DNA of 64,000 nucleotides from Salvia splendens. Its lineage: Eukaryota; Streptophyta; Magnoliopsida; Lamiales; Lamiaceae. The number at the start of each line of letters is the position of its first letter. Position 1 is the first letter of the stretch. Below the pieces are notes generated by a model. It saw nothing but the letters and a program-made list of their open reading frames with translations. It made no database searches and was not told where the DNA came from. The DNA is taken from the NCBI RefSeq assembly GCF_004379255.2, contig NC_056048.1:15771197-15835196 (forward strand), given 5' to 3'. Positions 14,771 to 48,690 of this stretch are shown here, piece by piece. The translations under genes and the position numbers were made by a program.

Positions 14771-16044
14771 TGCGGCAGAAACGGCGTTAACCTTTTAACA
14801 AGAATTTTTGTGATCACCTTGTTAAGGACGTTACACAGGCTGATGGGCCGGTAGTCCCCCCATGTGTTAGGGGCTGGCTTTTTGGGGATGAGTACGATAC
14901 TCATGGCCGTGATGGTTCGGGGGAGGTACGCCCCGAGGAAGAATTGTTTGATTGCCACCTCCACGTCCAGCCCTACGGTATCCCAGCACGTTTGAAAGAA
15001 TGTGGCCGTGAAGCCATCCGGCCCTGGCGATCTGTTTCCCGAGATATCAAAGACGGCCCGTTTAATTTCTTCCGAACCCGGGGCCTTGGGGAGATCCTCC
15101 AGTTGCTCCGAAGGGGGCAGGTGGTGCAGGAGATCAAGGTCCGGGTCGGCTAGTTCCGGAGAGTCGGGCGCAAGAAGATCTTGGAAAAAGTTGACCGCCG
15201 AGTTTCTAATCTCCGTTTCGTCCGAAATCTCTTGGCCATTCACCTCAATCCTATGAATTCTCAACATGGTCCTCTTTTGCTTGACCCAGCTTTGGTAGAA
15301 CCTAGTGTTGTTGTCTCCTTCCACGAGCCATTTCAGGGCTGCTTTCTGTCGCCAGAAATCTTCCTCCATCTTAAGGGATAGGATGTAGTTAGCAATGGGC
15401 TTGTTGATCTCTGTTCTATTACCTGGCGAAGGGTCCTCTTCAAAATTGGCTTGGGCAACGGCAATGCCTTCTACAAGATTTCTGAGGTTAATGTGAACGT
15501 TCCCAAACACCTCCTTGTTCCACACTTTGAGGGCCTTTTTAAGCCTCAAGAGTTTGATTTGCAGATTGAGTAGTCCTTCCGCCTCGGTGGGAAGCGTCCA
15601 ATTTTCTCGCACAAAGTCAGCGAACCCCTCATGCCGGATCCACATGTTTTGGAACCGGAAGGCCTTCCCCCCCGTGGGGGTGTTCATCACCTTACATCCA
15701 GCGAGGACCGGCCCATGGTCAGAGGAGACCCGGGGAAGATTGGTCGCTCTTGCTGCATCAAAAACTTGGGCCCACGATTCACTCACCATCCCCCTATCTA
15801 ACCTTTCAAACAGCCCATTCTTAGCCCAAGTAAAGTCCGAGCCATCATAGCCTGGTCGAGGAGTCTGCACTCCTCAATGGCCTCGGCAAAATCGATCATT
15901 TCCGCTTGACGGTTTGTGTCACTTCCAACTCTTTCCCGGTGGGAGAGGATGGTGTTGAAGTTTCCACCCCCCCCCCCCCCCCGATCATCCAAGGCGTCCC
16001 ATCATCAATGCGCGCTATCTCTCTCATTTGGTCCCAGAGATCAT

Positions 16045-16228
16045 TTTTTTTAAAACAGCACAAGGGTGGAGGGTTAAGGCAGACCCACACCTATGCATTG
16101 CCAAGACCATTGAAACGAACAAACAAAACACCGAGCCGCCCAAAAGTGACGACTCGCAAAGACCTATTAGAGTACAACGAGGGTCTCCCTATCAGCTAGA
16201 GTGGTCATCTAAATACTCTAAACACCGA
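16045..16228 (-). mobile_element. Element H: 3' end of the ORF1-only (half-LINE) family
   Basis: A 184-bp insertion in ORF2 of F, flanked by a perfect 35-bp direct repeat (16010-16044 and 16229-16263). Minus-strand poly(A), then a tail closely matching the 3' ends of O (43654 on) and P (46331 on), for example GGAGGGTTAAGGC, GAGCCGCCCAAAAGTGACG and TTAGAGTACAACGAGGG. Only 3' UTR is present. A 35-bp target duplication is unusually long for a LINE. Confidence 0.85.
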
Positions 16229-16589
16229 GCGCGCTATCTCTCTCATTTGGTCCCAGAGATCATGTCTCTCCCCTCGTGTGCACTTCGCATAAACGGCCGA
16301 GATCAAAATAGGATTTGGGAACCGAGGGCACGAAAACTTCCCATGGAGAATTTGATCCATATCCACTTCGGTCTCATAATTAGCACCCTCCTCCACAAAG
16401 ATCCAGATCTTCCCATTGGTATTCGAGCATTTGAATGTCAGTCCTAGAGCTCTCGAGAACCTCTCCGGGTTTGGAGTAGTGAGCGGCTCCAAAATCGCAA
16501 GAAAATTGATATGGTAAGTGTTGATTATTCTTTTAAGGACGTTTTGGGTTGGCGCATTAGCGATCCCCCTAACGTTCCAAAACAAGAAA

Positions 16590-21019: not shown

Positions 21020-21851
21020 TTGAGCCGGGATTTTACGGCCTTCAATTTCAAGCCCTTGGCTGATTGTTTGGGAGAGGTAGTATCAATGGACCGGAAAACC
21101 ATGAGCTGGTCCGGGATGGTCCTCGCCTCCTCGGAGCTTGATGCGGGGTCCGGCGGAGGATCCGTCATGGCCGAGCCGAGAGCACCTTCCCCAAACAAGG
21201 TGGAAGTTTCGGGGCGTGAGATGGGGCCAAGTTTAGGGATGGAAGATGGAGGAGACAAGGCACGGAAAAGAATGGCTCACGGTGAGATTGTGGACGGGTG
21301 GTTCGGCGGCCGGCAGAGTAATAAATCTTGGAGCGAATAGATGGGAGGGGTGGTAGGGTGGTGGCCGGCGTGGTGTAACTCACGGAGGATCGTGAGAATG
21401 AAGGGTTGAAAGGCCGCGGAAGTTAGGGTGGGGGGATTGTTAGAGAGAAAGAGGAGCGTCTCTCTCTAAAGTTGATGCAGCCTTGCGATTTTCCTGGTCC
21501 GGTTGGATCTGAGCAAGTAGGACATTGTCATTAAGAAGCCTACCCTTCACAAACCAGCTTTGATTCGGGGCGATGACCCGTGGGAGGATAGGAGTGAGCC
21601 TCTTCGTGAGGACCTTTGTGATGTTTTTGTTGAAGACGTTGCAAAGGCTAATGGGGCGGTAATCAACCCATGTGCTCGGCGATGGTTTCTTGGGAATGAG
21701 AACAATACTTGTTGCCGTAACACTTCGGGGGAGGTAGGCCCCTTGGAAGAACTGTCTGGCAGCTGCGACCACGTCCTGTCCCATAATTCCCCAGCATGCT
21801 TGAAAGAAAGTGGCGGAGAATCCATCGGGGCCAGGTGAACTGTCCCCCGAG

Positions 21852-24226: not shown

Positions 24227-24228
<2 letters not shown>

Positions 24229-27363: not shown

Positions 27364-27364
27364 T

Positions 27365-29200
27365 ATCGAGGGTCTTTTGGATTTGCAGTCCCGTAGGGAT
27401 AGAGTGAGAGAACTTACCCACAATGGCGTGTCCCATGCTCTCAGCAAGCTTTTGAGTTTCCGCTCCGGAGAAGTAGATGGCCGGGATGCCGTCGGACACT
27501 GAAGCAAATCCAATGTTCTGGAGCTTATCCGGCTCAAAGGCTTGAGGGCCGGTAGGGTCAGTCGAGCCTTTAAGCATGTCCGCCATCGTTTTCGGCCGAC
27601 CGGGGTGGCATGAGGCGCCTTCACCCCGGCCTTGTAGAGTGTTACTCGCCGAGCCCGACGGGGTACCCATAAGCAAGTCCGCCATCGATTTCGGCCACGG
27701 CGAGGACCCCGGGGTAGCTTCTACCCCCCCAAGTTGATTAACTACATTCGGCCCTCGTGTTGCGGCATCCGCCGTGGACTTAGGTGTATTTCCATTTCTC
27801 TTCGGATTGTTGAGTTCGGCTTCTCCGTTCTCGGTGTGGATCTTCTCGGCACCTACGTTGCCGTTGTGTGCCCTTCTCGGCTTTTCCATTCTCGGCTTTT
27901 CGGCTTTTTCTTTCTCGGTGTGGATCTTCTCGACTTTTTCCTTCTCGGTGAGGATCTGTTCGGCATCATCCATAGGCGTATCGTTGGATGTTGGTGTGTC
28001 TCTTGTCACTGCAACCATCTCGGTACTAGGCGTGGCCTTGTTCATCGTCTCGATAAAAGGCTTTTCCCGGTAGTCGTTAGGGTTCGACTTCGGTCGCGGC
28101 TGGCCGAGCTCCGCACTGTAATGTTCCGAACTAGCCTCAAACGTAGCTCGGAGCTTGCTAGTTCGTCCTCGTTCGAGAGGGGGGAAGTCCTCAAGAGAGG
28201 GTCCATTCCCATCCCGAGGTGTGTGTGTGACACTTTGCATGCATCCCGAAGAGTTTAGGGGGAACTCTGGTGGTTTGTGACCGGCCGTAATGAGAGGTTG
28301 CGCAACCAATGTGTCTAGCATCTCCGCCGAGTCCAAGGCGGCTAAGTGGATGATTTCGGCCTTTTTTGGTTGCGTTGGGGCCTCCACGACAATCATCTCA
28401 CGTGAGCTCTTGGAACGGAAAGGAGTTAGCGCACTTTCGGAAGGAGGTTTTGGTCTCCAAGCCAATTCGGGAAGGTTGGGTTGCTGCAGAAAGGAGCTAG
28501 ATTTTTGTTGTTTTGGGGGCTCAACGGATGCATTGGGGCCAGCATCACGTGGTGTTCCGAAGTGGCAAGGCGTCAAGGAACTTTCGGAAAGTGATTTTGT
28601 TGTTGTGCCCATTTCGGGCAAGTTGACTAGCGCGTCCACCAAGGCCTTTTGACCCATGCTAGAGCCATCTCTCTCCAAGCAGCCATCATGTGGGGGGTTG
28701 TGCTCTCCTCCGTCACCGGTCCCCGCGTTTGCGCCGGCCGCAAGGTCATCGGCCGAAGCGTTGCCAACAGTTCCGGCGCCGGCAAGTTCTTCATTAATCT
28801 TAGCTTCATCTTCACCGTTGGGATTAGGGGAGGGCTCCATCGACGTCGGGAAGATGGGGCCTTTGCATTTTGGACTTCCGACCGGCGAGCTCCCTTCGGC
28901 CCCGAAATCAATCTTCTTCCTAAGTTGCTTGTCCTCCGGCATCGGTGAGGGTACGAACCTTTTCCGACCAGTGCCTTTGGTGGGAGGGGCTGGTGTACTT
29001 TTCCGTGCCTTCACCTTCATTTTCAAAGTTTTCCTCGCCATTTTCTTGCAGGGAGAAATTATGGCGGAAGACTCCTCCGACGTGAAAGTCATTGGCTGGT
29101 CCGAGAGAGGGTCCTCGGCCGACCGGAGGACCATTAGCTGGTCCGAGATGGTGCGCGGTTCTTCGGACTCCGGGGGGGGATCCGGCGGGAGCTCCGGCAT
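27365..29200 (-). pseudogene. LINE ORF1, inverted arm K (open but 3'-truncated)
   Basis: Open from the Met at 29200 (MPELPPDPPPESEEPRTISD) to the insertion edge, about 610 codons. Basic block KKMARKTLKMKVKARKSTP and GTGRKRFVPSPMPEDKQLRK, two tandem LPEM/LPEL motifs (NLPEMGTTTKSLSESSLTP, NLPELAWRPKPPSESALTP), SLEDFPPLERGRTSKLRATF, a charged repeat (TEKEKVEKIHTEKEKAEK), STADAATRGPNV, TMADMLKGSTDPTGP and the first half of the DUF4283-like domain (NIGFASVSDGIPAIYFSG). The rest of the domain and the CCHC knuckle are missing. G run of 7 at the NQLGG position keeps the frame open, unlike N. Confidence 0.9.
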
Positions 29201-29460
29201 GATCGAGAGAGCGAGTCGAGTCACCAGCCGCTCCGGAGCTTTGTTCGTGCCTTAGCCAATGGAGTGGGTTGGTTGGTGAGAATCCGAGGTCGGGAGGGTG
29301 GTGGGTGGCTGGTGGAGCGGGGGCGTGAGGGGGACCGTCGACGGTGGTGAGCCGACTGAGAATGGGGGTAGGCGGCGATGTGGGAACTCAAAACGTGGTG
29401 GGGGATTCTAGAGAGAAGGGAGAGCGTCTCTCTCTAACTTACCATTCAAGATTCCTCCAT

Positions 29461-32255
29461 TCAAGCCTGCTGGCCCATTGTGGGGCCGGAGGTAGTGGAA
29501 GCAATCAGACAGTTCTTCAGAGGGGCCTTCCTGCCAAGGAGCATCACGGCCACAAGCATAGTCCTTATCCCAAAGAAGGCATCGCCGGAGTCATGGACCG
29601 ACTACCGACCCATTAGTCTCTGCAATGTTCTAAACAAGATCATTACCAAGGTACTCACCTCTCGACTCTCTCCTTTCCTCCCACAGGTCATCTCCCCAAA
29701 CCAAAGTGGATTTGTCAAAGGTCGGCTCCTTAACGACAACGCACTTCTGGCTCAAGAGATGTTCCATGAGCTTGCTAGATGCTCCCCAGCGCCTAATGTG
29801 GCAGTAAAGATTGACATGGCTAAAGCCTATGATAGGGTCCAATGGCCATTCCTCTTCAAAGTTTTACGCCGTATGGGTTTCCCGGATTCATGGATTTCAC
29901 TTATGGAGAGGTGTATTGGGTATTGCTGGTTCTCGGTCCTTGTTAACGGGGCACCCTCGGGCTTCTTTAGATCAACTCGAGGACTTCGGCAAGGAGACCC
30001 GATCTCCCCCGCTCTGTTCGTAATCGCTGCGGACTACCTGTCCCGAGCATTAGATAAGCTCATCCTCGGCCAAAAGGACATGACGTTCAAAGCCTCCCGG
30101 AGATGCATGGAGATCAGCCATCTAGCCTATGCGGACGACATTATCATCTTCACTCAAGCGGCGGCAAATCCTATGCGCCGGCTAAGAGCCTGTCTCGAAA
30201 AATATGAAAGAGTCTCCGGCCAACAAGTCAGCCTCGCCAAGAGTAATTTCTATATTGCCGAGGCCCATGAGCATTGGGCAAACTCGATCCAGGCGGAAGG
30301 AGGCTTCTCTAGAGGGGCCTTTCCTTTTCTCTATCTCGGAGTCCCTATCTATCGTGGTGCCAAACGCACGGACATGTTCCTATTTCTACGGGAAAAGATT
30401 GCAAGAAGGATCTCAGGATGGGCACACCGTCACCTATCCTTTGGAGGAAGGCTTACGTTGATTAAGAGCACTCTTGAAGCGATCCCCTTGCACATCTTTC
30501 AAGCCGTCGAGCCCACGGCCGGTACCCTCAAGCAACTTGATCAACAAATGGCCCGATTCTTTTGGGGGTCTACGAATGAAAAGAAGCGGACCCATTGGAT
30601 TGGATGGGAACAAATGTGCCGGCCCACTGATGAAGGAGGCCTTGGGATCCGAAAAACTATGGAGGTCCTCCGCGCCTTCAATATCAAACTTTGGTGGCGC
30701 TTTCGGGAGCAAAACTCCCTTTGGGCAAGATACATGATGGCAAAATATTGCTCCAACTCCACACCGCTCACCTTGAGATTGCCGAGCAGGAGTAGCCCTA
30801 CGTGGAGAAGGCTCTCAAGAGCATGGCCCCTCGCGCAACCGCACATAAGATGGCTTGTGGGACAAGGGGACATCTACTTCTGGGATGACATTTGGCTTGG
30901 CGATAGCCCTCTGAGGGAACTTAGTCTTGATGATAGGGGAAGACCAACCACCCGGGTCTCGGAGTTCATTACAAATGGTGGTTGGGATGTGCCCAAGCTT
31001 CAACTCCTTCACAATCAGGCCGGCCTTCCTCAGCATGTTATCGATGGCATCATTAATACACCGATCCTCCATGACGAACAGGATATCCTGAGGTGGAACC
31101 TCTCTAAGCATGGGGAATTCACGGTGGCTTCGACATGGGACACACTTCGAGGACGAAACCCGATCATCCATGGTTTGGGGGATGTTTGGAAGGTAGGCCT
31201 CACCAACTCAATAGCCATCTTTATCTGGAGGCTTCTCTCCAATCGGGTGCCGGTTGACACGAAACTTCAGTGGCGGGAGATTGAGCTAGCTTCTAAGTGC
31301 CAATGCTGCCCCCCACAGACCGAACACTGAGTCACTCCAACACCTCTTCATCCAGGGATATGGAGCTCGCAGAGTATGGAGTGAGTTCGACGGCTGGTTC
31401 ACAGGGCCGTTCCCCCGCATCCATATCAATGACACAATCCCTACGAGAATCGAAGTGTGGGCGCGAAGGTGCCAACAGCCGAACAAGAAACATCTTAGCC
31501 GAGCCACTCCATACCTCATCCTTTGGTTTATCTGGTCGGAGAGAAACAGGAGCCGCCACCAAGGCACACAGTTTAAACCACAAAACGTGGTATGGCAGGT
31601 CCACATGTTCATTCGAAATGCTATGTCTAATGGAAGCTTGAAGCCGAAACATTGGAAGGGAGTTAAACTTGGAATCAATATTCCCCAACAAGCGGCGGCA
31701 ATCAGGGCGCTACCCCTAGCCATGGCAATCAAATGGAACCCCCCGGATCAGCCGTGGATAAAGCTCAACACGGATGGCTCCTACAATGAAGCGAACGGCA
31801 GAACAGGGGCTGGAGGGATTATTCGAGACCACTCGGGTAAGATGCTCGCCGCCGTCAGCACACCCCTTGAAGCCCACTCGGCTTTAGAAGCGGAGCTGTT
31901 GGCCATGATTCACGGGCTAAATATAGCCAAGGAATTCGGCCTACCAATCTGGATTGAGTCAGATGCAGAGCAAGCAATCAAATTGGTCAATGGGACAGGA
32001 TGGGGCCCGGCACTAGCTCGGCAAGCGGTGGCGCAACTAACCATTCTCAAACGCCATCTCAATTTCCGAGCCACCTTCATACACAGGGAGGGGAACAAAG
32101 CGGCGGACTTCCTTGCGAAAATGGGGCTAGTCCAAGACAGTGGCCTACGAATGCACTACAACTCAGCACCGAGAGAACTGTTGGACTTGGTTAGATTGGA
32201 CGAGATGGGAGTGTCGCACATCCGAAACCTAGACGGGGACGGGCATCAAAGTTGA
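29461..32255 (+). pseudogene. LINE ORF2 from RT to RNase H, arm L (one frameshift)
   Basis: Open from the twin-priming junction to ~31330: RT with IVLIPKKASPESWTDYRP, NQSGFVKGRLLNDN, motif A KIDMAKAYDRVQW, motif B GLRQGDPISPALF, motif C HLAYADDIIIF, FLYLGVPIYRG, then zf-RVT. An extra C in the run at about 31308-31313 (six instead of five in N) shifts the frame. RNase H resumes 31455-32255 with NTDGSYNEAN, ALEAELLAMIHGL, IWIESDAEQAI and HREGNKAADFLAKMG intact. EN is absent because of the twin-priming deletion. Confidence 0.9.
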
Positions 32256-32469
32256 TCATGAGACGATGGGAGACACTAGTGACTAGCTTTTTGGTTAATT
32301 GTATTTTGGAAAGGAGTATGATGAGGTCCGAACTTTGTGGGATCGGACCGCATACTACTCTTGAATTTGTTACGGCACACCACTTTTGGGTGTGGCCACG
32401 CCTTGTAATTATCACTTTTGGAAATATAGGGATGAGGGACCCACGAACCCTCCACCGTAGAGGTGTTTG

Positions 32470-32511
<42 letters not shown>

Positions 32512-35138: not shown

Positions 35139-35170
35139 TGGGAACGTAAGAGGTCATCGAGAATTGTAAG

Positions 35171-35200
35171 TTAGAGAGAGACGCTCTCCCTTCTCTCTAG
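35171..35200 (+). promoter_or_regulatory. 5'-terminal hairpin of the LINE family (also in C, F, K; related form in O)
   Basis: TTAGAGAGAG, ten-base loop, TTCTCTCTAG. The arms TAGAGAGA and TCTCTCTA are perfectly complementary. Equivalents: C 3415-3444, F 19495-19524 (-), K 29408-29436 (-), O 46230-46259 (-, with a 2-nt bulge). It lies at the very start of the conserved element sequence, so it would form at the 5' end of the RNA. Possible roles are promoter, RNA packaging or protein binding. None is shown here. Confidence 0.7.
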
Positions 35201-35406
35201 AATCCCCCACCACGTTTTGAGTTCCCACATCGCCGCCCACCCCATTCTCGCTCGGCTCACCACTGTCGACGGTCCCCCTCACGCCCCCGCTCCACCAGCC
35301 ACCCACCACCCTCCCGACCTCGGATTCTCACCAACCAACCCACTCCTTTGGCAAAGGCACGAACAAAGCTCCGGAGCGGCTGGTGACTCGACTCACTCTC
35401 TCGATC

Positions 35407-38400
35407 ATGCCGGAGCTCCTGCCGGACCCCCCCCCGGAGTCCGAAGAACCGCGCACCATCTCGGACCAGCTAATGGTCCTCCGGTCGGCCGAGGACCCTC
35501 TCTCGGACCAGCCAATGACTTTCACGTCGGAGGAGTCTCCCTCCATAATTTTTCCCTGCAAGAAAGTGGCGAGGAAAACTTTAAAAATGAAGGTGAAGGC
35601 ACGGAAAAGTACACCAGCCCCTCCCACCAAAGGCACTGGTCGGAAAAGGTTCGTACCCTCACCGATGCCGGAGGACAAGCAACTTAGGAAGAAGATTGAT
35701 TTCGGGACCGAAGGGAGCTCGCCGGTCGGAAGTCCAAAATGCAAAGGCCCCATCTTTCCGACGTCGATGGAGCCCTCCCCTAATCCCAACGGTGAAGATG
35801 AAGCTAAGATTAATGAAGAACTTGCCGGCGCCAGAACTGTTGACAACGCTCCGGCCGATGACCTTGCGGCCGGCGCAAACGCGGGGACCGGTGACGGAGG
35901 AGAGCACAACCCCCCACATGATGGCTGCTCGGAGAGAGATGGCTCTAGCATGGGTCAAAAGGCCTTGGTGGACGCGCTAGTCAACTTGCCCGAAATGGGC
36001 ACAACAACAAAATCACTTTCCGAAAGTTCCTTGGCGCCTTGCCACTTCGGAACACCACGTGATGCTGGCCCCAATGCATCCGTTGAGCCCCCAAAACAAC
36101 AAAAATCTAGCTCCTTTTTGCAGCAACCCAACTTTCCCGAATTGGCTTGGAGACCAAAACCTCCTTCCGAAAGTGGGCTAACTCCTTTCCGTCCCAAGAG
36201 CTCACGTGAGACGATTGTCGTGGAGGCCCCAACGCAACCAACAAAGGCCGAAATCATCCACTTAGCCGCCTTGGACTCGGCGGAGATGCTAGACACATTG
36301 GTTGCGCAACCTCTCATTACGGCCGGTCACAAACCACTGGAGTTCCCCCTAAACTCTTCGGGATGCATGCAAAGTGTCACACACACACCTCGGGATGGGA
36401 ATGGACCCTCTCTTGAGGACTTTCCCCCTCTCGAACGAGGACGAACTAGCAAGCTCCAAGCTACGTTTGAGGCTAGTTCGGAACATTACAGTGCGGAGCT
36501 CGGCCAGCCGCGACCGAAGTCGAACCCTAACGTCTACCGAGAAAAGCCTTTTATCGAGACGACGAACAAGGCCACGCCTAGTGCCGAGATGGTTGCAGTG
36601 ATAAGAGACACACCAACACCCAACGATACGCCTATGGATGATGCCGAACAGATCCTCACCGAGAAGGAAAAAGTCGAGAAGATCCACACCGAGAAAGAAA
36701 AAGCCGAAAAGCCGAGAATGGAAAAGCCGAGAAGGGCACACAACGGCAACGTAGGTGCCGAGAAGATCCACACCGAGAATGGAGAAGCCGAACTCAACAA
36801 TCCGAAGAGAAATGGAAACACACCTAAGTCCGCGACGGATGCCGCAACACAAGGGCCGAATGTAGTTAATCAACTTGGGGGGGGCAGAAGCTACACCGGG
36901 GACCTCGTCGTGGCCGAAATCGATGGTGGACTTGCTTAGGGGTACCCCGTCGGGCTCGGCGAGTAACACTCTACAAGGCCGGGGTGAAGGCGCCGCAAGC
37001 CACCCCGGTCGGCCGAAAACGATGGCGGACATGCTCAAAGGCTCGACTGACCCTACCGGCCCCCAAGCCTTTGAACCGGATAAGCTCCAGAACATTGGAT
37101 TTGCTTCAGTGTCCGACGGCATCCCGGCCATTTACTTCTCCGGAGCGGAAACTCAAAAGCTTGCTGAGAGCATGGGACACGCCATTGTGGGTAAGTTCTC
37201 TCACTCTATCCCCACGGGACTGCAAATCCAAAAGACCCTCGATAATATTAAACTTCGGTGTGGATTTAGTTGGAAGTACATTAATGCTAAACATATTCTC
37301 ATTCAATGCGAGGACTTGGCGGACTATGCCCGAATCCTTGGAGGCCCAAGGGGTACGCCCGTTTGGCTCATTGACCGACACCCGATGAGGGTCTTCAAAT
37401 GGTCCCCGGACTTTGATGCTTACTGCGAGTCCCCCATTGCGGCAATTTGGTGCAACCTAATTGGCCTCCCCATTCATCTTTTCGACCAATCCGCCTTATT
37501 CGCCATCGGCAAGCTTCTCGGCAATCCAATACAAATTGATCGAGCCACGGCAAACAAGACTCGGCTTTCATTTGCCCGAATTTGCGTCGAGATAGACATC
37601 ACAAAACCACCTACCGAAGAGATAATCCTCGATCTTGGTGGGCGAGAAACGGTGCAGCGAGTCCGATGGGACAAGATACCATCATATTGCCGAGAATGCA
37701 AACATGTCGGCCATGCAAGTGAGGTGTGCTATGCGACGGGCAAGAAGGAACGGCCGCCAAAGAGAAACTACCACAACGGCCCGCCAAAACAGCCACAACC
37801 CGAGAGACAGACCGAGAAGGGGAAGCAAGATATGGGGAAGAATGCCTCCAGCTCCAACGAATGGAAACATCAGGGGAAGAAGCAAGGCAAGGCCGGTGAT
37901 CGACCAAACAATAACAAAACAAATGGGGAGGACTCCGGTGATACTTCCTGGGAGGGACCGAACTCCAAGGGTGACTCTACTTTGGGGAGCGGACCGAGCT
38001 CCGGAACTCAGAATGCCGGGCTCATTGCCGGGATCGAGATTGGGAAGTCCCCACCGAACCGGGGGAATCCATTGCATCCCACCACCGAACCACCAACACC
38101 ACGTGGGAACATGGACGTGGAGTGGGGCTCCCCCAATGCGAGGAGCTTGGTCTCACCAGTTCGGCGAGGGAATCCGAGAGGAGGCGCGCGCCATGCTTTG
38201 ACAAGGGGGCGTGGGTTCTTCTCGGCAAAGAACCACATGAGCACTAACCAATATTATACTCTCATGGAGAACGGAGAATTTGATGTTGAGAATTGTGGGG
38301 ATGCGGACGAAGACCTTATGGAATTGCACGTGGGGGCCGAGAAGTTAGGAGGCAACAGTTCGGCCGAGGACGCCGAGGAGGTCGCTCCGAACAAAGAGCA

Positions 38401-38461
38401 ACACCGTACTGACTATCAAGGAGGGCCTTCAACCTCTTTGGGTACGCACCCTTCTTGTTAA
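35407..38461 (+). pseudogene. LINE ORF1p (DUF4283-like plus CCHC), one 1-nt frameshift (element N)
   Basis: About 1017 codons if the single slip is ignored. Start at the ATG of MPELLPDPPPESEEPRTISD, shared with K. Residues ~60-100: basic, NLS-like block. ~200-290: two tandem LPEM/LPEL motifs. ~340: SLEDFPPLERGRTSKLQ. ~415-460: charged TEKEK repeats. ~560-745: DUF4283-like domain (NIGFASVSDGIPAIYFSG, MRVFKWSPDFDAYCESPIAA, ITKPPTEEIILDLGGRET). ~760: CCHC (YCRECKHVGHASEVCYATG). C-terminus acidic (MSTNQYYTLMENGEFDVENC). A G run of 8 at 36877-36884 (7 in K) shifts the frame. Role: RNA-binding chaperone of the LINE ribonucleoprotein. Confidence 0.9.
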
Positions 38462-38463
38462 TA

Positions 38464-41400
38464 ATGTCGTACAATCTCATGTTTTGGAACGTGAGGGGGA
38501 TCGCGAATGCGCCCACTCAAAACGTTCTGAAAAGACTAATTGGTTGTCATAATGTTTTATTTCTTGCAATAATGGAACCGCTCACACAACCGGACCCGGA
38601 CCGTTTCTCTAAGGCCTTGGGGCTGTCCTTCATTGGTTCGAACACGAACGAGAAGATTTGGATGTTTGCGGAAGAGGGGTCCACTTTTGATATTGAGGTT
38701 GACTCGGAACAAATTCTCCACGGGTACCTCAAATCCCACCGCCTTGCTAGGCCGGTGGCCATCTCAGCCGTGTACGCCAAATGTACAAGGGCTGAAAGAC
38801 ATCACTTATGGGACAAGATGAGAGAGATTGCCGGGCCTCTTGAGGGAACACCTTGGATCATCGGTGGCGATTTCAACACCATGCTATCTCACCAAGACAG
38901 AGTCGGAAGTGATACCAACCGGCAAGCCGAGATGGTAGATTTTGCGGAGGCAACGGAAGATTGTAGGCTGCTTGACCCTGGTTTTGATGGAGCGGCATTC
39001 ACTTGGGCCAAGAATGGCCTTTTTGAAAGGTTGGATAGAGTGCTTGTCAGCGAGGATTGGACTAAGACCTTCGAGGCTACTCGGGTTACGAACCTCCCCC
39101 GGATTGCCTCGGACCATGGACCAATTCTTGTCAGGTGCACGAAGATGAACACATCCGCTGGAGCCAAGGCTTTCAGGTTCCAGAACATGTGGATCCGACA
39201 TGAAGGATTCATGGCCGTAGTGCAAAAAGCATGGGAGGAGCCCACGGGGGCGGGTGGAATCCTAAACATTCAAATCAAGCAGGCCAGAGTTAAAAAGGCC
39301 CTTAAGGAGTGGAACAAAGAGGTTTTTGGAAACATCCATGCTAATCTAAAAGAAAAGGAGGAAGAAATTGCTCTGGCCCAATCTTGTTTCGAAGCAAGGC
39401 CGACTCCGGATCACAGGACAGCGATCAACAAACACATTGCCGAGTACATCCTTTTGCTGAGAATGGAAGAAGATTTTTGGCGACAGAAGGCAGCTTTGAG
39501 GTGGCTTGCCGAGGGAGACAAAAATACCCGGTTCTACCAAAGCTGGGTGAAACAAAAGAGGGTTCGTCTCCGCATCCATTCAATACGTGTCAATGGGCAG
39601 GAGCTCACCGAGGAAGCCGAGATTAAAAAGTCCGCAGTGGAGTTCTTCCAACAACTCCTTGCCCCCAACAATCCGACACTTGAAGATCCAGACCTCGACC
39701 TAATCCAGCAGGTCCACTCAGCCGAGCAGTTCGCTGACATCGCAGATGCTCCAAGTGCGGACGAGGTCAGGAGTGCCACCTTTTGCATTTCCGGAGATAG
39801 TGCACCCGGACCCGACGGCTTCTCGGCCACCTTCTATCAAGCCTGCTGGCCCATTGTGGGGCCGGAGGTAGTGGAAGCAATCAGACAGTTCTTCAGAGGG
39901 GCCTTCCTGCCGAGGAGCATCACGGCCACAAGCATAGTCCTTATCCCAAAGAAGGCATCGCCGGAGTCATGGACCGACTACCGACCCATCAGTCTCTGCA
40001 ATGTTTTAAACAAGATCATTACCAAGGTACTCACCTCTCGACTCTCTCCTTTCCTCCCACAGGTCATCTCCCCAAACCAAAGTGGATTTGTCAAAGGTCG
40101 GCTCCTTAACGACAACGCACTTCTGGCTCAAGAGATGTTCCATGAGCTTGCTAGATGCTCCCCAGCGCCTAATGTGGCAGTAAAGATTGACATGGCTAAA
40201 GCCTATGATAGGGTCCAATGGCCATTCCTCTTCAAAGTTTTACGCCGTATGGGTTTCCCGGATTCATGGATTTCACTTATGGAGAGGTGTATTGGGTGTT
40301 GCTGGTTCTCGGTCCTTGTTAACGGGGCACCCTCGGGCTTCTTTAGATCAACTCGAGGACTTCGGCAAGGAGACCCGATCTCCCCCGCTCTGTTCGTAAT
40401 CGCTGCGGACTACCTGTCCCGAGCATTAGATAAGCTCATCCTCGGCCAAAAGGACATGACGTTCAAAGCCTCCCGGAGATGCATGGAGATCAGCCATCTA
40501 GCCTATGCGGACGACATTATCATCTTCACTCAAGCGGCGGCAAATCCTATGCGCCGGCTAAGAGCCTGTCTCGAAAAATATGAAAGAGTCTCCGGCCAAC
40601 AAGTCAGCCTCGCCAAGAGTAATTTCTATATTGCCGAGGCCCATGAACATTGGGCAAACTCGATCCAGGCGGAAGGAGGCTTCTCTAGAGGGGCCTTTCC
40701 TTTTCTCTATCTCGGAGTCCCTATCTATCGTGGTGTCAAACGCACGGACATGTTCCTCTTTCTACGGGAAAAGATTGCAAGAAGGATCTCAGGATGGGCA
40801 CACCGTCACCTATCCTTTGGAGGAAGGCTTACGTTGATTAAGAGCACTCTTGAAGCGATCCCCTTGCACATCTTTCAAGCCGTCGAGCCCACGGCCGGTA
40901 CCCTCAAGCAACTTGATCAACAAATGGCCCGATTCTTTTGGGGGTCTACGAATGAAAAGAAGCGGACCCATTGGATTGGATGGGAACAAATGTGCCGGCC
41001 CACTGATGAAGGAGGCCTTGGGATCCGAAAAACTATGGAGGTCCTCCACGCCTTCAATATCAAACTTTGGTGGCGCTTTCGGGAGCAAAACTCCCTTTGG
41101 GCAAGATACATGATGGCAAAATATTGCTCCAACTCCACACCGCTCACCTTGAGATTGCCGAGCAGGAGTAGCCCTACGTGGAGAAGGCTCTCAAGAGCAT
41201 GGCCCCTCGCGCAACCGCACATGAGATGGCTAGTGGGACAAGGGGACATCTACTTCTGGGATGACATTTGGCTTGGCAATAGCCCTCTGAGGGAACTTAG
41301 TCTTGATGATAGGGGAAGACCAACCACCCGGGTCTCGGAGTTCATTACAAATGGTGGTTGGGATGTGCCCAAGCTTCAACTCCTTCACAATCAGGCCGGC

Positions 41401-42628
41401 CTCCCTCAGCATGTTATCGATGGCATCATTAATACACCGATCCTCCATGACGAACAGGATATCCCGAGGTGGAACCTCTCTAAGCATGGGGAATTCACGG
41501 TGGCTTCGACATGGGACACACTTCGAGGACGAAACCCGATCATCCATGGTTTGGGGGACGTTTGGAAGGTAGGCCTCACCAACTCAATAGCCATCTTTAT
41601 CTGGAGGCTTCTCTCCAATCGGGTGCCGGTTGACACGAAACTTCAGTGGCGGGAGATTGAGCTAGCCTCTAAGTGCCAATGCTGCCCCCACAGACCGAAC
41701 ACTGAGTCACTCCAACACCTCTTCATCCAGGGATATGGAGCTCGCAGAGTATGGAGTGAGTTCGACGGCTGGTTCACAGGCCCGTTCCCACGCATCCATA
41801 TCAATGACACAATCCCTACGAGAATCGAAGTGTGGGCGCGAAGGTGCCAACAGCCGAACAAGAAACATCTTAGCCGAGCCACTCCATACCTCATCCTTTG
41901 GTTATATGGTCGGAGAGAAACAGGAGCCGCCACCAAGGCACACAGTTTAAACCACAAAACGTGGTATGGCAGGTCCACATGTTCATTCGAAATGCTATGT
42001 CTAATGGAAGCTTGAAGCCGAAACATTGGAAGGGAGTTAAACTTGGAATCAATATTCCTCAACAAGCGGCGGCAATCAGGGCGCTACCCCTAGCCATGGC
42101 AATCAAATGGAACCCCCCGGATCAGCCGTGGATAAAGCTCAACACGGATGGCTCCTATAATGAAGCGAACGGCAGTACAGGGCTGGCGGGATTATTCGAG
42201 ACCACTCGGGTAAGATGCTCGTCGCCGTCAGCACACCCCTTGAAGCCCACTCGGCGTTAGAAGCGGAGCTGTTGGCCATGATTCACGGGCTAAATATAGC
42301 CAAGGAATACGGCCTACCAATCTGGATTGAGTCAGATGCAGAGCAAGCAATCAAACTGGTCAATGGGACGGGATGGGGGCCGGCACTCGCTCGGCAAGCG
42401 GTGGCGCAACTAACCATTCTCAAACGCCAACTCAAATTCCGAGCCACCTTCATACACAGGGAGGGGAACAAAGCGGCGGACTTCCTTGCGAAAATGGGGC
42501 TAGTCCAAGACAGTGGCCTACGAATGCACTACAACTCAGCACCGAGAGAACTATTGGACTTGGTTAGATTGGACGAGATGGGAGTGTCGCACATCCGAAA
42601 CCTAGACGGGGACGGGCATCAAAGTTGA
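38464..42628 (+). pseudogene. LINE ORF2p: EN, RT, zf-RVT, RNase H (element N; two late 1-nt deletions)
   Basis: Begins at ATG 38464, 2 nt after ORF1's TAA; ~1388 codons overall, the first ~1150 uninterrupted. EN (residues 1-230): LMFWNVRGIANAP, IMEPLT, SAVYAKCTRAER, IIGGDFNTML, RLDRVLVS, ASDHGPIL. RT (~440-800): IVLIPKK, DYRPISLCNVLNK, motif A KIDMAKAYDRVQW, motif B GLRQGDPISPALF, motif C YADD (~residue 681), FLYLGVPIYRG. zf-RVT (~1045-1095): ASKCQCCPHRPNTESLQHLF. RNase H (~1220-1350): NTDG, EAELLAM, ESDAEQ, HREGNKAADFLA. Single-base deletions near 41905 and 42185 disrupt the zf-RVT/RNase H linker and early RNase H. EN and RT look catalytically complete. Confidence 0.92.
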
Positions 42629-42686
42629 TCATGAGACGATGGGAGACAATAGTGACTAGCTTTGTGGTTAATTGTATTTTGGAAAG

Positions 42687-42732
42687 GAGTATGATGAGGT
42701 CCGAACCTTGTGGGATCGGACCGCATACTACT
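42687..42732 (+). promoter_or_regulatory. 3' UTR long hairpin of the LINE family
   Basis: GTATG and GGTCCGA (42689-42704) pair with TCGGACC and CATAC (42716-42728), with GAGTA/TACTC extending the stem. The same structure occurs in I (24033-24075), L (32317-32362), T and E (-) and F (-). A and S have a different primary sequence at this place that can still pair. Confidence 0.6.
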
Positions 42733-42806
42733 CTTGATTTTGTTACGGCACACCACTTTTGGGTGTGGCCACGCCTTGTAATTATCTCTTGTGGAAATAT
42801 AGGGAT

Positions 42807-42838
42807 GAGGGACCCACGAACCCTCCACCGTAGAGGTG
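42807..42838 (+). promoter_or_regulatory. 3'-terminal double hairpin next to poly(A) (LINE family)
   Basis: GAGGG-(ACCCACGAA)-CCCTC followed directly by CACC-(GTAGA)-GGTG, then TTTGATT and poly(A). Seen in A, E, F, I, L, N, R, S and T. The stem of the second hairpin is kept while its loop varies (GTGAA, GTAGA, ATGAC, GTTAA, GTAAT). LINE RTs often recognise the RNA 3' end, so this is a candidate recognition element. Confidence 0.65.
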
Positions 42839-42842
42839 TTTG

Positions 42843-42885
<43 letters not shown>

Positions 42886-42887
<2 letters not shown>

Positions 42888-43617
42888 GTGTTGGTCGATT
42901 GTTGGAAGGGACGTTGTGGAAGCGATCTCACAGTTCTTTAAAGGGGCTGACCTCCCCTGAAGTGTCACGGCCACAAACATAGTTCTTATTCCAAAGAAGG
43001 CGTCGCCCGAGACATGGGCTGATTACCGCCCTATTAGCCTGTGCAATGTCCTCAATAAGATCATTACCAAAGTTCTAAGGGCCAGACTCACACCTTTCTT
43101 GCCGTAGGTCATATCTCCCAACCAATCTGGTTTTGTGAAGGGACGGCTCCTGAATGACAATGTCCTCCTAGCCCAAGAAATGTTCCATGAGATTGCTAGG
43201 TGCTCCCCGACCCCAAACGTGGCGATCAAGATTGACATGGCCAAGGCCTATGACAGGGTCCAGTGGGGCTTCCTTACAAAAGTACTCCGACGCATGGGTT
43301 TCTCGGAGCCATGGATCAGCCTTATTGAAAGGTGCGTTGGTTCCTGTTGGTTCTCTGTTCTTATTAATGGTGCCCCCGCTGGTTTTTTTCAGATCAACCC
43401 GAGGTTTACAACAAGGAGATCCCATCAGCCACGGATTACTTGTCGATGGCCCTTGACGGAGGGAGATGACATTCAAAGCCTCGAGGCGATGTATGGAAAT
43501 AAGCCACTTAGCATACGCCGATGATATCATTATCTTCACGCAAGCGGCTGAGACCCCTCTTCGCCAACTTAGAGCATGCCTTAATGGGTATAAGGGAGTC
43601 TCCGGGCAACAGATCAA

Positions 43618-43621
<4 letters not shown>
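42886..43621 (+). mobile_element. LINE J, piece 3 of 4 (RT core)
   Basis: Resumes J after N. ORF2 RT: VLIPKKASPETWADYRPISL, stop at 43107-43109 (PQ to P-stop), NQSGFVKGRLLNDN, motif A KIDMAKAYDRVQW (43225-43265), motif B region decayed with a frameshift near 43395 and loss of LFVIAA codons, motif C HLAYADDIIIFTQ (43506-43545), ending GVSGQQINL at the O insertion. A TGA at 42958-42960 also breaks it. Confidence 0.85.
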
Positions 43622-43661
<40 letters not shown>

Positions 43662-46283
43662 CCCGAGGGTGGAGGGTTAAGGCGGACCCACACCTGTGCA
43701 TTACCAACAGCAATTGCAGCCAAAACAAACAACCATTGAGCCGCCCAAAAGTGACGGCTCACCACGACCAATTAGAGTACAACGAGGGCCTCCCAATAAA
43801 CTAGGGTAGTCATCTAAATACTCTTAGCATCCCTATTACAATTATAATGATGCAGCCATCGCATCGTCAAAAACTTAAGTCCGTTACCTAGTTGAGGCCC
43901 GCGATAGGGGTGCCCCCACATGTGACAACCCCTCCCGGATCGAGGTCCTCGATGAAGCCCTCCATTTCCCGGCTTAGGAACCCACATGATACACTCATTG
44001 AGCCAATGCCCGGCTCAGTTGCACCCGAGTCGTCGGCCCCAAAAGTAACCGTTGCTACGTTCTCCTTAAGATGCAACTTATCATTGTGGAGAGCTCTGAT
44101 GTACCCATCACCCTCGTGGACCTTTCCTTTCTTCTTCCTAGACACCACTTGGAAAACCATCGTCATCTACCTGGGCTTGCACCCTCGGTGTTGCTTTCAA
44201 GCTAGGAGCCGCTTCCGCACCGCTCTTCTCTTTGTGTGTCCCCGGCTCGGTCTCCCCCTTTGGCATAGACCCTTGGCCCGGCTCCGGGTTGTGGGTGCCA
44301 TGCACGTTAGTTTTCAGCCTCCATTCCCGGCGGATGGGATTTGACGCAGAGTGGGGTCGGCGGGGTTGTGGTGGTCGGGTGGGATCCGTGGTGGCCTGCT
44401 CCTTTCTCCTCCCTAGGATAAGGCATGTTTCCTTGACGTGCCCAACATGCTTACATTCCGCACAAAATAGGGGAATCCGATCCCATACCACCTTGTACCT
44501 AGTGTCTTTGCCTAGGATGTTGAGAATGATCTCCACCGGTGGAGGCGTCGAGATATCAATCTCAATACACATCCGGGCAAAGGTGAGTCGGGTTTGGTTG
44601 AAGGTCGCATGGTCCACTTGGATTGGCTTCCCCAACAACTTGCCAATCGCAATGAGGGCTACTTGGTCATAGAGATGGATCGGGAGTCCCACCACCTTAC
44701 ACCAAACGGCGGCAATAGGTGTCTCAAAAAATGTGTCGAACTCCGGAGTCCATTTGAACACCCGCATTGGGTGATGCTCGACAAACCAAACCGGCGCTCC
44801 ATTGGGACCATTGAGCATCCGGCCGTAATCTCGTACATCACGGAATTGGATTAGGATGTGCTTGGCGTTAATGAACTTCCATTTGAATCCATCGACGAAG
44901 TTGATGTTGGAAAGGGATTTTTGGATTTGTTGTGGTGTTGGGAGGGTGTGGGAGAACTTTCCGATAATGGCGTGCCCTACCTTGTCCACCAAGCACTTTG
45001 TTTCCTCGTTTGAGAATGTAAGCGAAGGGATCCCTTCACACCATCCGAATGTCCCCATCTCCGTGTCGTGATCAGCATCAAGGTTCACCGCGTCGGATTT
45101 CGGTGGTCCTCCACTATCCAGCCCGGCACCCGTGTTCGCGGGCTTTTCATCTAGATCTGGCTCAACAGGTTGGGTCTCGGCTTGAGCGGCCTTGTCCGTG
45201 ATGAATTCCAGCGAGTGACCCAACGTCGGCAGACTCCCAACGGGGGAGGCCACGTCGATGCCTACCTCAGACGCCGAGTGCTTGGGTAGGATTTCCGGCT
45301 GGTCCCTGTCCTGGTCCAGCAGCTTGTCCGGCGGGTCCGACGGGTTATCCGGCGCCGACGGCTTCCCGTTGAGCCCGTCCTCACCCCCTCCATTGTTATC
45401 CTCGGCCTTGAAATTTGTACCATCACCAGATTTGAATTGCAAGAGGCTTTGACCCATAAGGGAGTCACATGTCTCACTAGCTAGTACATGCCTATCCTTT
45501 CCGGAAATGGTGCAGCAAGAGTGGGTGGGTCAAAAAAGCATGTTGGCACCATACCTTTCCGAGGATGTGTCCTCGTCCAAGACAGCTGCACTTGCAGCCG
45601 CCTCCACGCGCGTTGACCGGAGTACCCCTTGTGCAACGGCCTCATTCACCTCCGGTAATGCACCCTCCAGCCGAGTTCCGGTCACGACTTCCGGCTGGTG
45701 CCTGGCCGAGCCGTCCTTTTGTCCCATGGAGAAACGGAGCTCCCCCGCGAGTAATGGGAGAACTCCCGGCACCACCTCAAACGCTCCGGTGCTGGCTTCA
45801 AAATGGTCAGGTCGTGCCTTTCTCTTCCACCGGCGCTTCTCTCTCTCCCCGGGCAGGGAGCTCCAACCGTCTTTTCCGGCAATGGCGCTACCCCTCCACC
45901 ATTAGTTTCCGGAAATAAGCTCATCGAACTCAAAGACAATCTTCTTCCTCACCCTTCCGGTCTCCGTCAATGGCACACAAGCGCTGCGTTTTGTATTACC
46001 ACCGTTTTTAATGGGGTGGGGAGTGGCTGACTTTTTCATATTCCGTTTCGCATTAGTTGGTCGGAAAACCCATTTCGGCGAGGGAGAGGGACTCGTGCCT
46101 TGACCTCCTTCCCCGGTGAGTCCGTTCCGGGCTGGACCATGACCGACGTTAGGCCGGCCGCATATCCACCTCACCCCAAGGTGAGGGAGACCGTCGGCGT
46201 TGGACGTGAGATGGTTGGGGCAAGACTTTCTAGAGAGATGTGGGAGCTTCTCTCACTAGCGGTTGCAGCTTATGTGTCCAACG
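43622..46283 (-). mobile_element. Element O: full-length ORF1-only half-LINE (no ORF2)
   Basis: 2662-bp insertion in LINE J with a perfect 18-bp target duplication (GGGCAACAGATCAACCTC, 43604-43621 and 46284-46301). Minus strand: ~23 nt of non-homologous 5' sequence, a 5' hairpin (46230-46259) almost the same as the LINE's, 5' UTR, one ORF1 with DUF4283-like and CCHC domains, a ~235-nt 3' UTR, a terminal CACC-N5-GGTG hairpin (43659-43671) and poly(A) of 32. There is no EN, RT, zf-RVT or RNase H and no room for them. Two further members are H and P. Compare mammalian HAL1, an ORF1-only L1 derivative. Confidence 0.88.
43887..46174 (-). pseudogene. ORF1 of half-LINE O (DUF4283-like plus CCHC)
   Basis: Several frames from 46174: KKSATPHPIKNGGNTKRSAC..RKKIVFEFDELI (basic block), stop at 45902-45904, then 45775-45530, then a 439-codon open stretch from 45457 (MGQSLLQFKSGDGTNFKAED). 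DUF4283-like domain at ~45040-44530 (FGWCEGIPSLTFSNEETKC, GKFSHTLPTPQQIQKSLSNI, PVWFVEHHPMRVFKWTPEFD, IDISTPPPVEIILNILGKDT), CCHC at ~44470-44420 (FCAECKHVGHVKETC). A 1-nt shift near 44155 leads to the C-terminus (FQVVSRKKKGKVHEGDGYIR, ending GGTPIAGLN, stop near 43889). The protein is clearly related to, but well diverged from, the LINE's ORF1p, so this is a separate lineage and not a simple deletion of N. Confidence 0.85.
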
Positions 46284-46320
46284 GGGCAACAGATCAACCT
46301 CGCCAAAAGCAACTTTTACA
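46284..46320 (+). mobile_element. LINE J, piece 4 of 4 (37 bp)
   Basis: After O, the host reads GGGCAACAGATCAACCTC then GCCAAAAGCAACTTTTACA (QQINLAKSNFY), the expected continuation of ORF2. It ends at the poly(T) of element P. The rest of J (thumb, zf-RVT, RNase H, 3' end) is not in the window. Confidence 0.8.
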
Positions 46321-46735
46321 TTTTTTTTTTAAATCAATAGCACCACGAGGGTGGAGGGTTAAGGCGGACCCACACCTGTGCATTACTAAGGACAATTGCA
46401 ACGAACAACCAGGAACACCGAGCCGCCCAAAAGTGACGGCTCGCCAAAACCAATTAGAGTACAACGAGGGCCTCCCTACCAACTAGAGTGGTCATCAATG
46501 TGCTCTTCACTATTCTATTACAATTAACCTGGTGTAACCTTCACATCACAAAATCCAAGATCCGTCACTTAATTGAGGCCCACAATAGGGATACCCCCAC
46601 GATGAACGATCCCTCCCGGATCAAGTTCCTCGATGAAGCCTTCCTTCTCCCGGTTGGGGAGCCCACATGAGGACATTCATTGAGCAAGTGCTCGGCTCGT
46701 TCGCACTAGAGTCATCCCGATCGAATGACACCAGT
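46321..46735 (-). mobile_element. Element P: 5'-truncated half-LINE of the O family
   Basis: Minus-strand poly(A) (10 T at 46321-46330 on +), terminal hairpin CACC-CTCGT-GGTG, a 3' UTR aligning with O, and the C-terminal codons of ORF1 (GGIPIVGLN and stop near 46580). It fades near 46735. It lies only 37 bp from O in the same host ORF2. No matching target duplication was found on its right side, where LINE J does not resume. Confidence 0.75.
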
Positions 46736-47761: not shown

Positions 47762-48690
47762 ATGGCGGTTCTTACCCGGCGGGGTGTGAAGGCCCCCCTT
47801 GAATTTTGGTGCATTGAAGGTCTTGCGGGGCGTGTCCAGAGCCTTTGTCCCTAGCGGGAAGAAGCTTACACATTATTGTAATGAGGGTGCCGAGTTCGAG
47901 CCGTCTTGAGATCAGTTGTAATTTCCTCCTATCTATAGTATAGGAGTTTATTTGCAATTTACTAATAAAAAAAAGGTCTACGGGGCGTGTCCAGAGCCTT
48001 TGTCCTAGCGGGAAGAAGCTTACACATTATTGTATGAGGTGCCGAGTTCGAGCCCTCTTGAGATCAGTTGTAATTTCCTCCTATCTATAGTATAGGAGTT
48101 TATTTGCAATTTCCTAATAAAAAAAAAGGTCTTACGGGGCGTGGCTTGACTCGCCCTACGTGATTAGCATGGTGGAGCCTTCGGCGTCGATGTTCGGCTG
48201 CCGCTCGACCTCAATGCTCTTGATATCATCGAGGACGGTCGGGCCGAGCCCCCCGAACCTTGAATTACCTGGCCAGCTGACCCACTACGCCCATGCGTAC
48301 CCTTGCCAGCCACACTAGGAGAAACATCCCTCCGGGGATAGTGGAAAGGGAGGAATCCCGTCCGTTGCTTGGAGGTGTCCAGCCTTGTTTTCCTCCTTTC
48401 TCAAGTTGATCACCCTCCTCCGGGTCGAAAGGTTCATGGAGGTTGCCTAGAATGTCCGGCCCCATCCGTTCGGCTTCCACGGCCTCGCTTACCCTCGAGC
48501 TATTGTTGTGTTGCTCCCCCGAATTTTTTCCTCTTCTTTGAGCTCTCCATTCCCTTCCATTCAACAAGGGTTTTGAGATATCTTGTGCCCTTGTTTTCCG
48601 TTCTCGAATTGCGGTTGCTTGGGAGGAATGGTGTTGTAGTTTTTCTTGATCGGCCTTTCCGTCTTGCCTACCGTGCAACACACGTCAGTT
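47762..48690 (-). pseudogene. LINE ORF1 C-terminal tail (element Q copy 1), split by SINEs
   Basis: Begins at the end of the CCHC knuckle (GHKTDVCCTVGRQ, ~48690), then DKAD..LQHHSSQATAIR, AEAERMGPDILGNLHEPFD and a region of 48265-48145 with stops. After the SINE dimer the last codons IQGGPSHPAG end at 47774 near the ORF2 start. Copy 2 is at 61884-62643. Confidence 0.75.
47819..48143 (-). mobile_element. SINE dimer (two tRNA-type SINE copies in tandem)
   Basis: Two ~139-bp units (47835-47974 and 47990-48127), readable on + from TCCAGAGCCTTTGTCC to an A8 tail, each bounded by the same ~16-bp site (GGTCTTGCGGGGCGTG at 47819, GGTCTACGGGGCGTG at 47975, GGTCTTACGGGGCGTG at 48128). A pol III B-box-like motif GAGTTCGAGCC and an A-box-like CTAGCGGGAAGAAG lie ~40 nt apart. 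The 3' part ends AATAAAAAAAA. The SINE runs on + although its host ORF1 runs on -. The locus copy at 61940-62110 has only one unit. Confidence 0.7.

Follow-up and report, generated by a model that had tools for sequence, protein, structure and literature searches.

Can a plant retrotransposon lineage of the L1 type persist when it encodes only the protein of its first open reading frame (ORF1p) and leaves that of the second (ORF2p) to others? This question is raised by an insertion, element O, in a stretch of 64,000 nucleotides of Salvia splendens DNA (contig NC_056048.1, positions 15,771,197 to 15,835,196; hereafter the window). An initial annotation, made from the letters alone, had described O as a complete insertion of a long interspersed nuclear element (LINE) that holds ORF1 and no ORF2, and as a plant counterpart of mammalian HAL1. 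From the analysis reported here we conclude, with a probability of about 0.8, that O is a member of a diverged and recently multiplied ORF1-only lineage of plant L1 type, which is moved by borrowed ORF2p.

O lies on the minus strand within the reverse transcriptase (RT) part of another LINE's ORF2, which occupies 42886-43621 and resumes at 46302. The insertion is complete, as had been proposed: it is bounded by an 18-bp target-site duplication (3' copy at 43604..43621, 5' copy at 46284..46301) and ends in a poly(A) of 32 nt (43622..43653), seen as T on the plus strand. Reading inward from the poly(A), the 3' untranslated region (UTR) proper of ~234 nt (43654..43887) contains the 3'-terminal tail (43654..43690, AACCCTCCACC...GGTGCTTTT), the core of which is common to the ORF2-bearing LINEs of the window, and a hairpin (43738..43760) with the loop ACTTTTG, whose stem covaries with the stems of LINE N, introduced below, and of some other LINEs. 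The ORF1 region follows (43888..46140), then a family-conserved 5' UTR of ~119 nt (46141..46259) that begins CTAGTGAGAGAAGCTCCC and holds a 5' hairpin, and finally an outermost 24 nt (46260..46283), complete only in O and in L009, a duplicate of the O locus. The 5' boundary had originally been set outside these 24 nt; the conserved 5' end lies near 46259. The 5' hairpin that had been noted is present but weak in O (z -0.89), and is stronger in a long copy of the related P subfamily (z -2.88).

The ORF1 of the initial annotation was a 439-aa ORF (44138..45457) with DUF4283 and CCHC motifs. Pfam reported DUF4283 in this ORF (1e-23) as the sole family at E ≤ 0.01, which supports the first assignment; the CCHC knuckle (C-x2-C-x4-H-x4-C) was identified by eye only, and no zinc-knuckle family was reported by Pfam in the same ORF. 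No match to endonuclease (EN), RT, zf-RVT or RNase H was found inside the insertion, in agreement with the original description.

A genome search with O gave 1345 candidates, the best 40 of which were scored; all 40 places, O included, match over at least 2.2 kb. The 39 further places (33 after dropping duplicated segments) are 97.4-99.5% identical to O, and the median pairwise identity among the 34 non-duplicate elements is 98.7%. The junction from ORF1 to the 3' UTR was spanned without insertion in 38 of the 39 copies, and the remaining one, L047, stops before the junction; in L035, ~190 bp of foreign sequence lies near the 3' end. In 21 of the 39 copies (20 of the 33 non-duplicate ones) ORF1 is open over 749 aa (750 in one), from MVQPGRDS to a stop after GLN, while in L017 and L018 the frame continues beyond the usual stop. 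This 749-aa frame is the equivalent of window positions 46140-43888, where O has four breaks, and O's 439-aa ORF is a broken remnant of it. The anatomy first drawn for the element, a 439-aa ORF1 between long UTRs, describes a copy in decay; in the siblings, ORF1 takes up most of what had been called 5' UTR and about half of what had been called 3' UTR.

Target duplications were scored in 31 copies, O included, leaving out copies in duplicated segments (L009, L018, L027, L043, L045 and L046) and those with the 3' part cut or interrupted (L035, L042 and L047). O's own duplication recurs in L009 and L046, in duplicated flanks, with L046 missing the first 378 nt, and L018, L027, L043 and L045 have flanks in common with another copy. 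Duplications of 12-21 bp (median 17.5) were found in 26 of the 31, 21 of these 26 having A as first base, and none of at least 12 bp was found in L011, L016, L023, L026 or L040. O thus belongs to a mobile family, as had been predicted: many copies agree in 5' end, ORF1 and 3' end, lack an ORF2 and have target duplications of their own.

The proteins closest to the O ORF are S. splendens gene models, up to 100% identical over parts. Several annotated proteins depart from the element at a single point in DUF4283, after VDK, as if spliced, so that the gene models look chimeric. LINE ORF1s are annotated as host genes in both Salvia and Sesamum (P0026, P0058 and the SASPL_ models), under labels such as 'peroxidase', '40S ribosomal protein S5' and hypothetical proteins. 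A sequence pattern search of viral contigs, sensitive to close relatives only, returned no match.

To locate any ORF2 in the O clade, we used the 3'-terminal tails as landmarks. Among the fetched loci there are 76 O-type tails, of which 74 lie at most 400 bp after an O-clade ORF1; the two others belong to H, a truncated copy in an ORF2, and to the interrupted L035. N-type tails, named after LINE N of the window (35141..42885, plus strand; ORF1, ORF2, poly(A) and an 18-bp target duplication), follow an ORF2 or RNase H in 13 of 15 cases; of the remaining two, that in L013 comes after an O-clade ORF1, and the other has none of these before it. The count excludes six tails close to locus ends as well as L001-L008, which repeat fetched copies; it is biased, because most loci came from ORF1-containing queries, and overlapping loci were counted repeatedly. 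A tail-only search of the genome (27 letters of the O-type tail, one mismatch allowed) found 364 tails and 0 for the reversed control, and the coordinates of 100 of the 364 were compared with those of O-clade ORF1s from a protein search with an ORF1 C-terminus (P0036; best 144 of 3397 candidates scored). By coordinates, 21 of the 144 ORF1s have a same-strand tail 288-501 bp downstream, with these 100 tails used. Three more have one at 1.2, 2.0 and 4.0 kb, and the latter two tails are those of neighbouring ORF1-only copies. No ORF2-bearing O-clade member was seen in the copies examined, which cover only a minority of the clade; these copies have the DUF4283 ORF1 of autonomous plant L1-type elements and lack their EN- and RT-bearing ORF2. 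The outcome on which the initial annotation would have been given up, an ORF2 between ORF1 and 3' UTR in most members, was likewise not seen in this partial survey.

The clade extends beyond the O family. The window contains P (46321..46735, minus strand), a partial copy with an internally deleted ORF1 C-terminus, a 3' UTR and a short poly(A), around which no target duplication was found, and H (16044..16232, minus strand), the 5'-truncated copy inside a LINE ORF2, with a target duplication of 25 bp (16014-16038 / 16233-16257). Both have O's 3' end, as first noted, with 79% identity for P and 83% for H. A longer relative of P, here called P' (L048), has an O-like 5' end, N-terminal motif, DUF4283, CCHC, C-terminus and 3' UTR; at the amino-acid level its C half is 54.8% and its N half 35.8% identical to O. 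A search with the 3' part of P' (best 40 of 835 candidates scored, all 97-100%) showed that the ORF1 C-terminus runs directly into the 3' UTR in 30 of 30 fetched P-subfamily loci, not all of them independent; the entire fetched ORF1 part is open in 4 of the 30. A third subfamily, T, is represented by one locus (L049), where the ORF1 C-terminus is in frame, shows 49% identity to that of O and is followed by T's own 3' UTR. Protein identity among the ORF1-only subfamilies O, P and T is 36-57%. The ORF1 of P' is itself broken by a SINE-like stretch (resembling a short interspersed nuclear element) with an A-run, at ~5650-5855 of L048, and most other P copies are without it. An EN fragment at 47753-46870 was considered as an ORF2 belonging to P and rejected: since P copies elsewhere (L048, L050-L079) run from ORF1 to the 3' UTR without an ORF2, the fragment was taken as a separate LINE beside P.

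Across the three subfamilies the ORF1 has diverged under constraint. The ratio of nonsynonymous to synonymous divergence (dN/dS) is 0.24 (bootstrap 0.13-0.34) for the C half and 0.41 (0.25-0.58) for the N half of O and P', 0.32 (0.17-0.52) for O and T, and 0.33 (0.21-0.46) for P' and T, at dS values of 0.9-1.6. Stop-free frames of at least 600 aa were found in 63, and of at least 700 aa in 44, of the best 144 O-clade places. In an ORF1 tree of 38 rows, O, P' and T (T covering 17% of the columns) form one clade with five database proteins (99/96), and six window or locus rows labelled ORF2-bearing, N included, form another (100/99); an ORF2 follows in five of these six, and for the sixth, win5272, none was seen downstream, leaving its label unsupported. 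The ORF1 of an open O sibling is 45% identical to that of LINE N over 331 aa, and the distinctness from N that had been asserted for O's protein is confirmed. The shared junction suggests that ORF2 was lost once, before the subfamilies split, in which case ORF1 would have been kept for its own sake.

The 3' end links O to ORF2-bearing LINEs. A hairpin with the loop ACTTTTG and a variable stem occurs in O, P, T, H and N; in N and O, 75-84 nt separate it from the poly(A) that follows. The alignment comprised 11 distinct sequences, which were selected because they have the loop and were typed in from the window and the loci; the LINE at 32470 was left out, as it is the same as N. In this alignment 88.9% of cells are paired, 19 cells are changed on both sides and the covariation score is 0.525, each value equalled in 0 of 500 shuffles; in slid registers the paired share never exceeded 48.5%, the doubly changed cells 8 or the score 0.186, and the best such register had 44.4% paired, with 8 cells and a score of 0.186. 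Pair 6 occurs as C-G, G-C and U-A and pair 7 as A-U, C-G, U-A and U-G, a variety of bases which argues that the stem changes were not a single event. When the hairpin was called present on at least five of six inner pairs, it was found in 73 of 79 O-type tails. In addition, the core AACCCTCCACC and a GGTG stretch are common to the ~30 nt that precede the poly(A), and O can be aligned with N along the whole length of the 3' UTR. The N-type tails at 1408, 11432, 14224, 49939 and 60587 of the window are without the ACTTTTG hairpin, so that LINE 3' ends of two kinds seem to occur side by side there.

The 5' ends of the copies carry a different kind of information. In 21 of 26 copies, the conserved 5' end is separated from the target duplication by 8-46 nt of mostly private sequence (O's extra nucleotides were entered as 0 in this count, its start being set at 46283). 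On the simplest reading, transcription started upstream, in the flank, so that each copy would bear a short tag of its parent, and O's outermost 46260-46283 are read as the transduced flank of a parent copy. The 42-nt 5' extra of L033 includes the target duplication of L032 and then L032's private stretch (C16:27.98 vs 27.79 Mb). The presence of that duplication in L033 indicates that an ORF1-only copy itself served as template of a new insertion; most simply, judging from the sequences, L032, whose ORF1 is open, would be the parent of L033 by 5' transduction. Such tags can let parent-offspring pairs of copies be traced.

As to what ORF1 may do, AlphaFold2 modelled the 439-aa ORF with confidence over residues ~135-345, and the best Foldseek matches of this model are mostly proteins with tandem RNA recognition motifs (RRMs), HuR, PABP and IMP3 among them (best E 1.4e-3). 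These RRM-like matches, together with the CCHC knuckle, are compatible with a predicted RNA-binding ORF1p.

We also examined where the copies lie. Of the 40 O-family places, 24 are on nine large contigs with at least two each, and every group spans at most 352 kb; under uniform placement, all nine groups fell within 400 kb in 0 of 10,000 trials. Among the best 144 O-clade places, 128 are on 21 large contigs, and 120 of these lie at most 0.75 Mb from their contig's median, as do 92 of the 100 listed O-type tails (364 in total). The S. splendens genome paper describes Hi-C-defined pericentromeres of 0.3-1.2 Mb that are enriched in LINE1 and delimited by 93-573 LINE1 elements (PMC8408255). Compared by scale, the O-clade clusters match these LINE1-dominated regions, and the passages of that paper considered here draw no distinction of an ORF1-only class (PMC8408255). 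Because pericentromeric crowding of LINE1 was already published, clustering as such is not new; what is added is that an ORF1-only clade takes part in it.

We propose that transcripts of the O lineage would begin no more than a few tens of bases ahead of the family's conserved 5' end and be translated into one 749-aa ORF1p with an RRM-like core and CCHC, which presumably coats its own RNA. ORF2p of an N-type LINE of the same genome could then recognise the shared 3' end (hairpin, tail and poly(A)) and insert a new copy by target-primed reverse transcription. We infer borrowing because O has a 3' end in common with these LINEs, has target duplications, and has no RT of its own; LINE N is likely a representative of the candidate ORF2p donors. 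A more specific form of this proposal, that each pericentromere is home to a split LINE system in which a long-lived ORF1-only lineage and ORF2-bearing LINEs are served by one ORF2p through the hairpin, is put forward tentatively. If it were true, the crowding of ORF1-only copies in the same regions would place the homing signal either in the partner's ORF2p or EN or in the O-clade ORF1p.

Other explanations differ mainly in where the ORF2 went and whether ORF1 matters. It is unlikely, on present counts, that O, P and T each lost their ORF2 separately from an ORF2-bearing LINE, extant or recent, whose ORF1 and 3' UTR are of O type, since O, P' and T have the same junction between ORF1 stop and 3' UTR and form one clade (T on 17% of columns), the 74 tails of the biased count follow an O-clade ORF1 with the other two explained, and coordinates alone place a tail no more than 501 bp from 21 ORF1s; what speaks for separate loss is that most O-clade members, the P0036 branch included, lie outside the downstream survey. 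We consider it somewhat less probable still that O is a passive, SINE-like parasite that needs only its 3' signal and whose ORF1 is open merely through youth. The 98.7% median identity among O copies would suit such youth, and so would the similar ratios of nonsynonymous to synonymous variants, but dN/dS of 0.24-0.41 at dS of 0.9-1.6 across three ORF1-only subfamilies, and the 63 of 144 places with a stop-free frame of at least 600 aa, argue for a maintained protein. That O is a retrocopied DUF4283 host gene and no LINE derivative appears very improbable: S. splendens gene models do label O ORF1s as hypothetical genes, but the 3' UTR can be aligned to LINE N's, in hairpin and tail as well, and the well-supported ORF1 clade that stands nearest to O's own contains ORF2-bearing LINEs. 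Finally, an isolated internal deletion within an ordinary LINE would fit the anatomy of the single copy but has nothing else in its favour; it is refuted by the 39 further places and two more subfamilies.

Several observations weigh against an ORF1-only lineage with a functional ORF1 and a shared 3' signal. Within the O family, the ratio of nonsynonymous to synonymous changes is 0.45-0.60 for shared variants and 0.53 for singletons, with no difference between them; the stops, 7 among singletons and 0 among shared variants, are only suggestive. An ORF2-bearing member with an O-type 3' UTR could have escaped, since the places scored (40 of 1345, 40 of 835 and 144 of 3397) came mostly from ORF1-containing queries, and the P0036-like ORF1s are an outlying branch outside the ORF2 survey. 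Of the 144 ORF1s, 120 are uninformative, the 7 kb after them containing no listed tail, and 77 of the 100 listed tails have no ORF1 of the 144-place list within 7 kb upstream. The nearest listed tail to the ORF1 at C13:17599640-17600410 is 1.2 kb downstream and unexplained, although such a gap is too short to leave room for a whole ORF2. The Foldseek matches are weak: none has E ≤ 0.001, and the TM-scores by target are at most 0.41 among the 50 listed. In the hairpin alignment, which left out an O variant with a broken pair (L044), neither the five pairs with change on both sides nor the ten further pair types exceed the shuffles (129 and 328 of 500, respectively). Moreover, the hairpin is absent from 6 of 79 O-type tails and from 9 of 17 N-type tails (5 of 10 in the window), which leaves 8 of these 17 with it, and the N hairpin folded alone is weak (z -0.85).

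The window holds further elements beside those of the O clade. A 510-aa ORF upstream in LINE N was considered as a sign of a different organisation and rejected, since it reads as the N-terminal part of a longer N-type ORF1. This ORF1 seems to be ~1000 aa (35407-38461 and 27335-29200): the 510-aa ORF matches the start of a 621-aa ORF, which passes in frame into the N-type ORF1 start. A LINE at 27346-32508, with an 18-bp target duplication, has its 5' part (the 621-aa ORF, minus strand) inverted relative to ORF2, and looks like a 5' inversion by twin priming. At 47817-48143, two tandem units of 152 bp with 94% matches, a box-B-like GTTCGAGCC and A-rich ends look like a tRNA-type SINE in two copies. 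A near-identical tandem duplication of a LINE 3' part (19930-21024 and 21875-23239) lies in 19893-24239, where the same 15-bp flanking word occurs three times.

Among known systems, the closest described case for the clustering is Celine, an L1-type centromeric LINE of poplar with a DUF4283 ORF1 and target duplications of 10-30 bp, which is reported to occupy one region of every chromosome with insertions nested in one another; but Celine has an ORF2 and O has none (PMC11288735). For the 3' end, the comparison is with the stringent-type L1s and SINEs of maize and sorghum, described as having a 3' hairpin with a conserved loop and compensatory stem changes (PMC3747384). The O system likewise has a hairpin in common between LINE and passenger, with these same traits, though in 8 of 17 N-type tails; unlike the published case, which as far as described concerns grasses, SINE passengers and the loop UCU, O is an ORF1-coding half-LINE of a eudicot with the loop ACUUUUG (PMC3747384). 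Nor does O have the non-coding character of a SINE, its 749/750-aa ORF1 being open in 21 of 39 copies. The covarying hairpin hints at how ORF2p may select RNA in a eudicot L1 lineage, and the LINE1-dominated pericentromeres offer a natural test of whether homing goes with ORF1p or ORF2p.

The ORF1p of mammalian L1 is assigned to a Pfam family other than DUF4283. HAL1 of mammals encodes ORF1p only and is described as a non-autonomous L1 derivative thought to use ORF2p in trans (PMC3627910, PMC5753468), and in the guinea pig it is reported there to have retained coding capacity for about 29 to 44 Myr (PMC3627910). Like HAL1, O encodes ORF1p without ORF2p and is multicopy and poly(A)-tailed, with target duplications. 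Unlike HAL1, it has an ORF1 of the plant DUF4283/CCHC type, and not the mammalian L1 ORF1p family; it has a covarying 3' hairpin in common with part of the ORF2-bearing LINEs; and its copies crowd into one region per chromosome. No plant half-LINE was found among the matches listed in the open-access literature. A half-LINE outside mammals, with its ORF1 retained through long divergence, makes it testable in a plant why a non-autonomous element needs an ORF1p of its own. The comparison with HAL1 made in the initial annotation thus stands as an analogy and not as membership, Pfam giving only DUF4283 for the ORF1: the O lineage is a plant half-LINE by function, HAL1-like, and by descent it is not HAL1.

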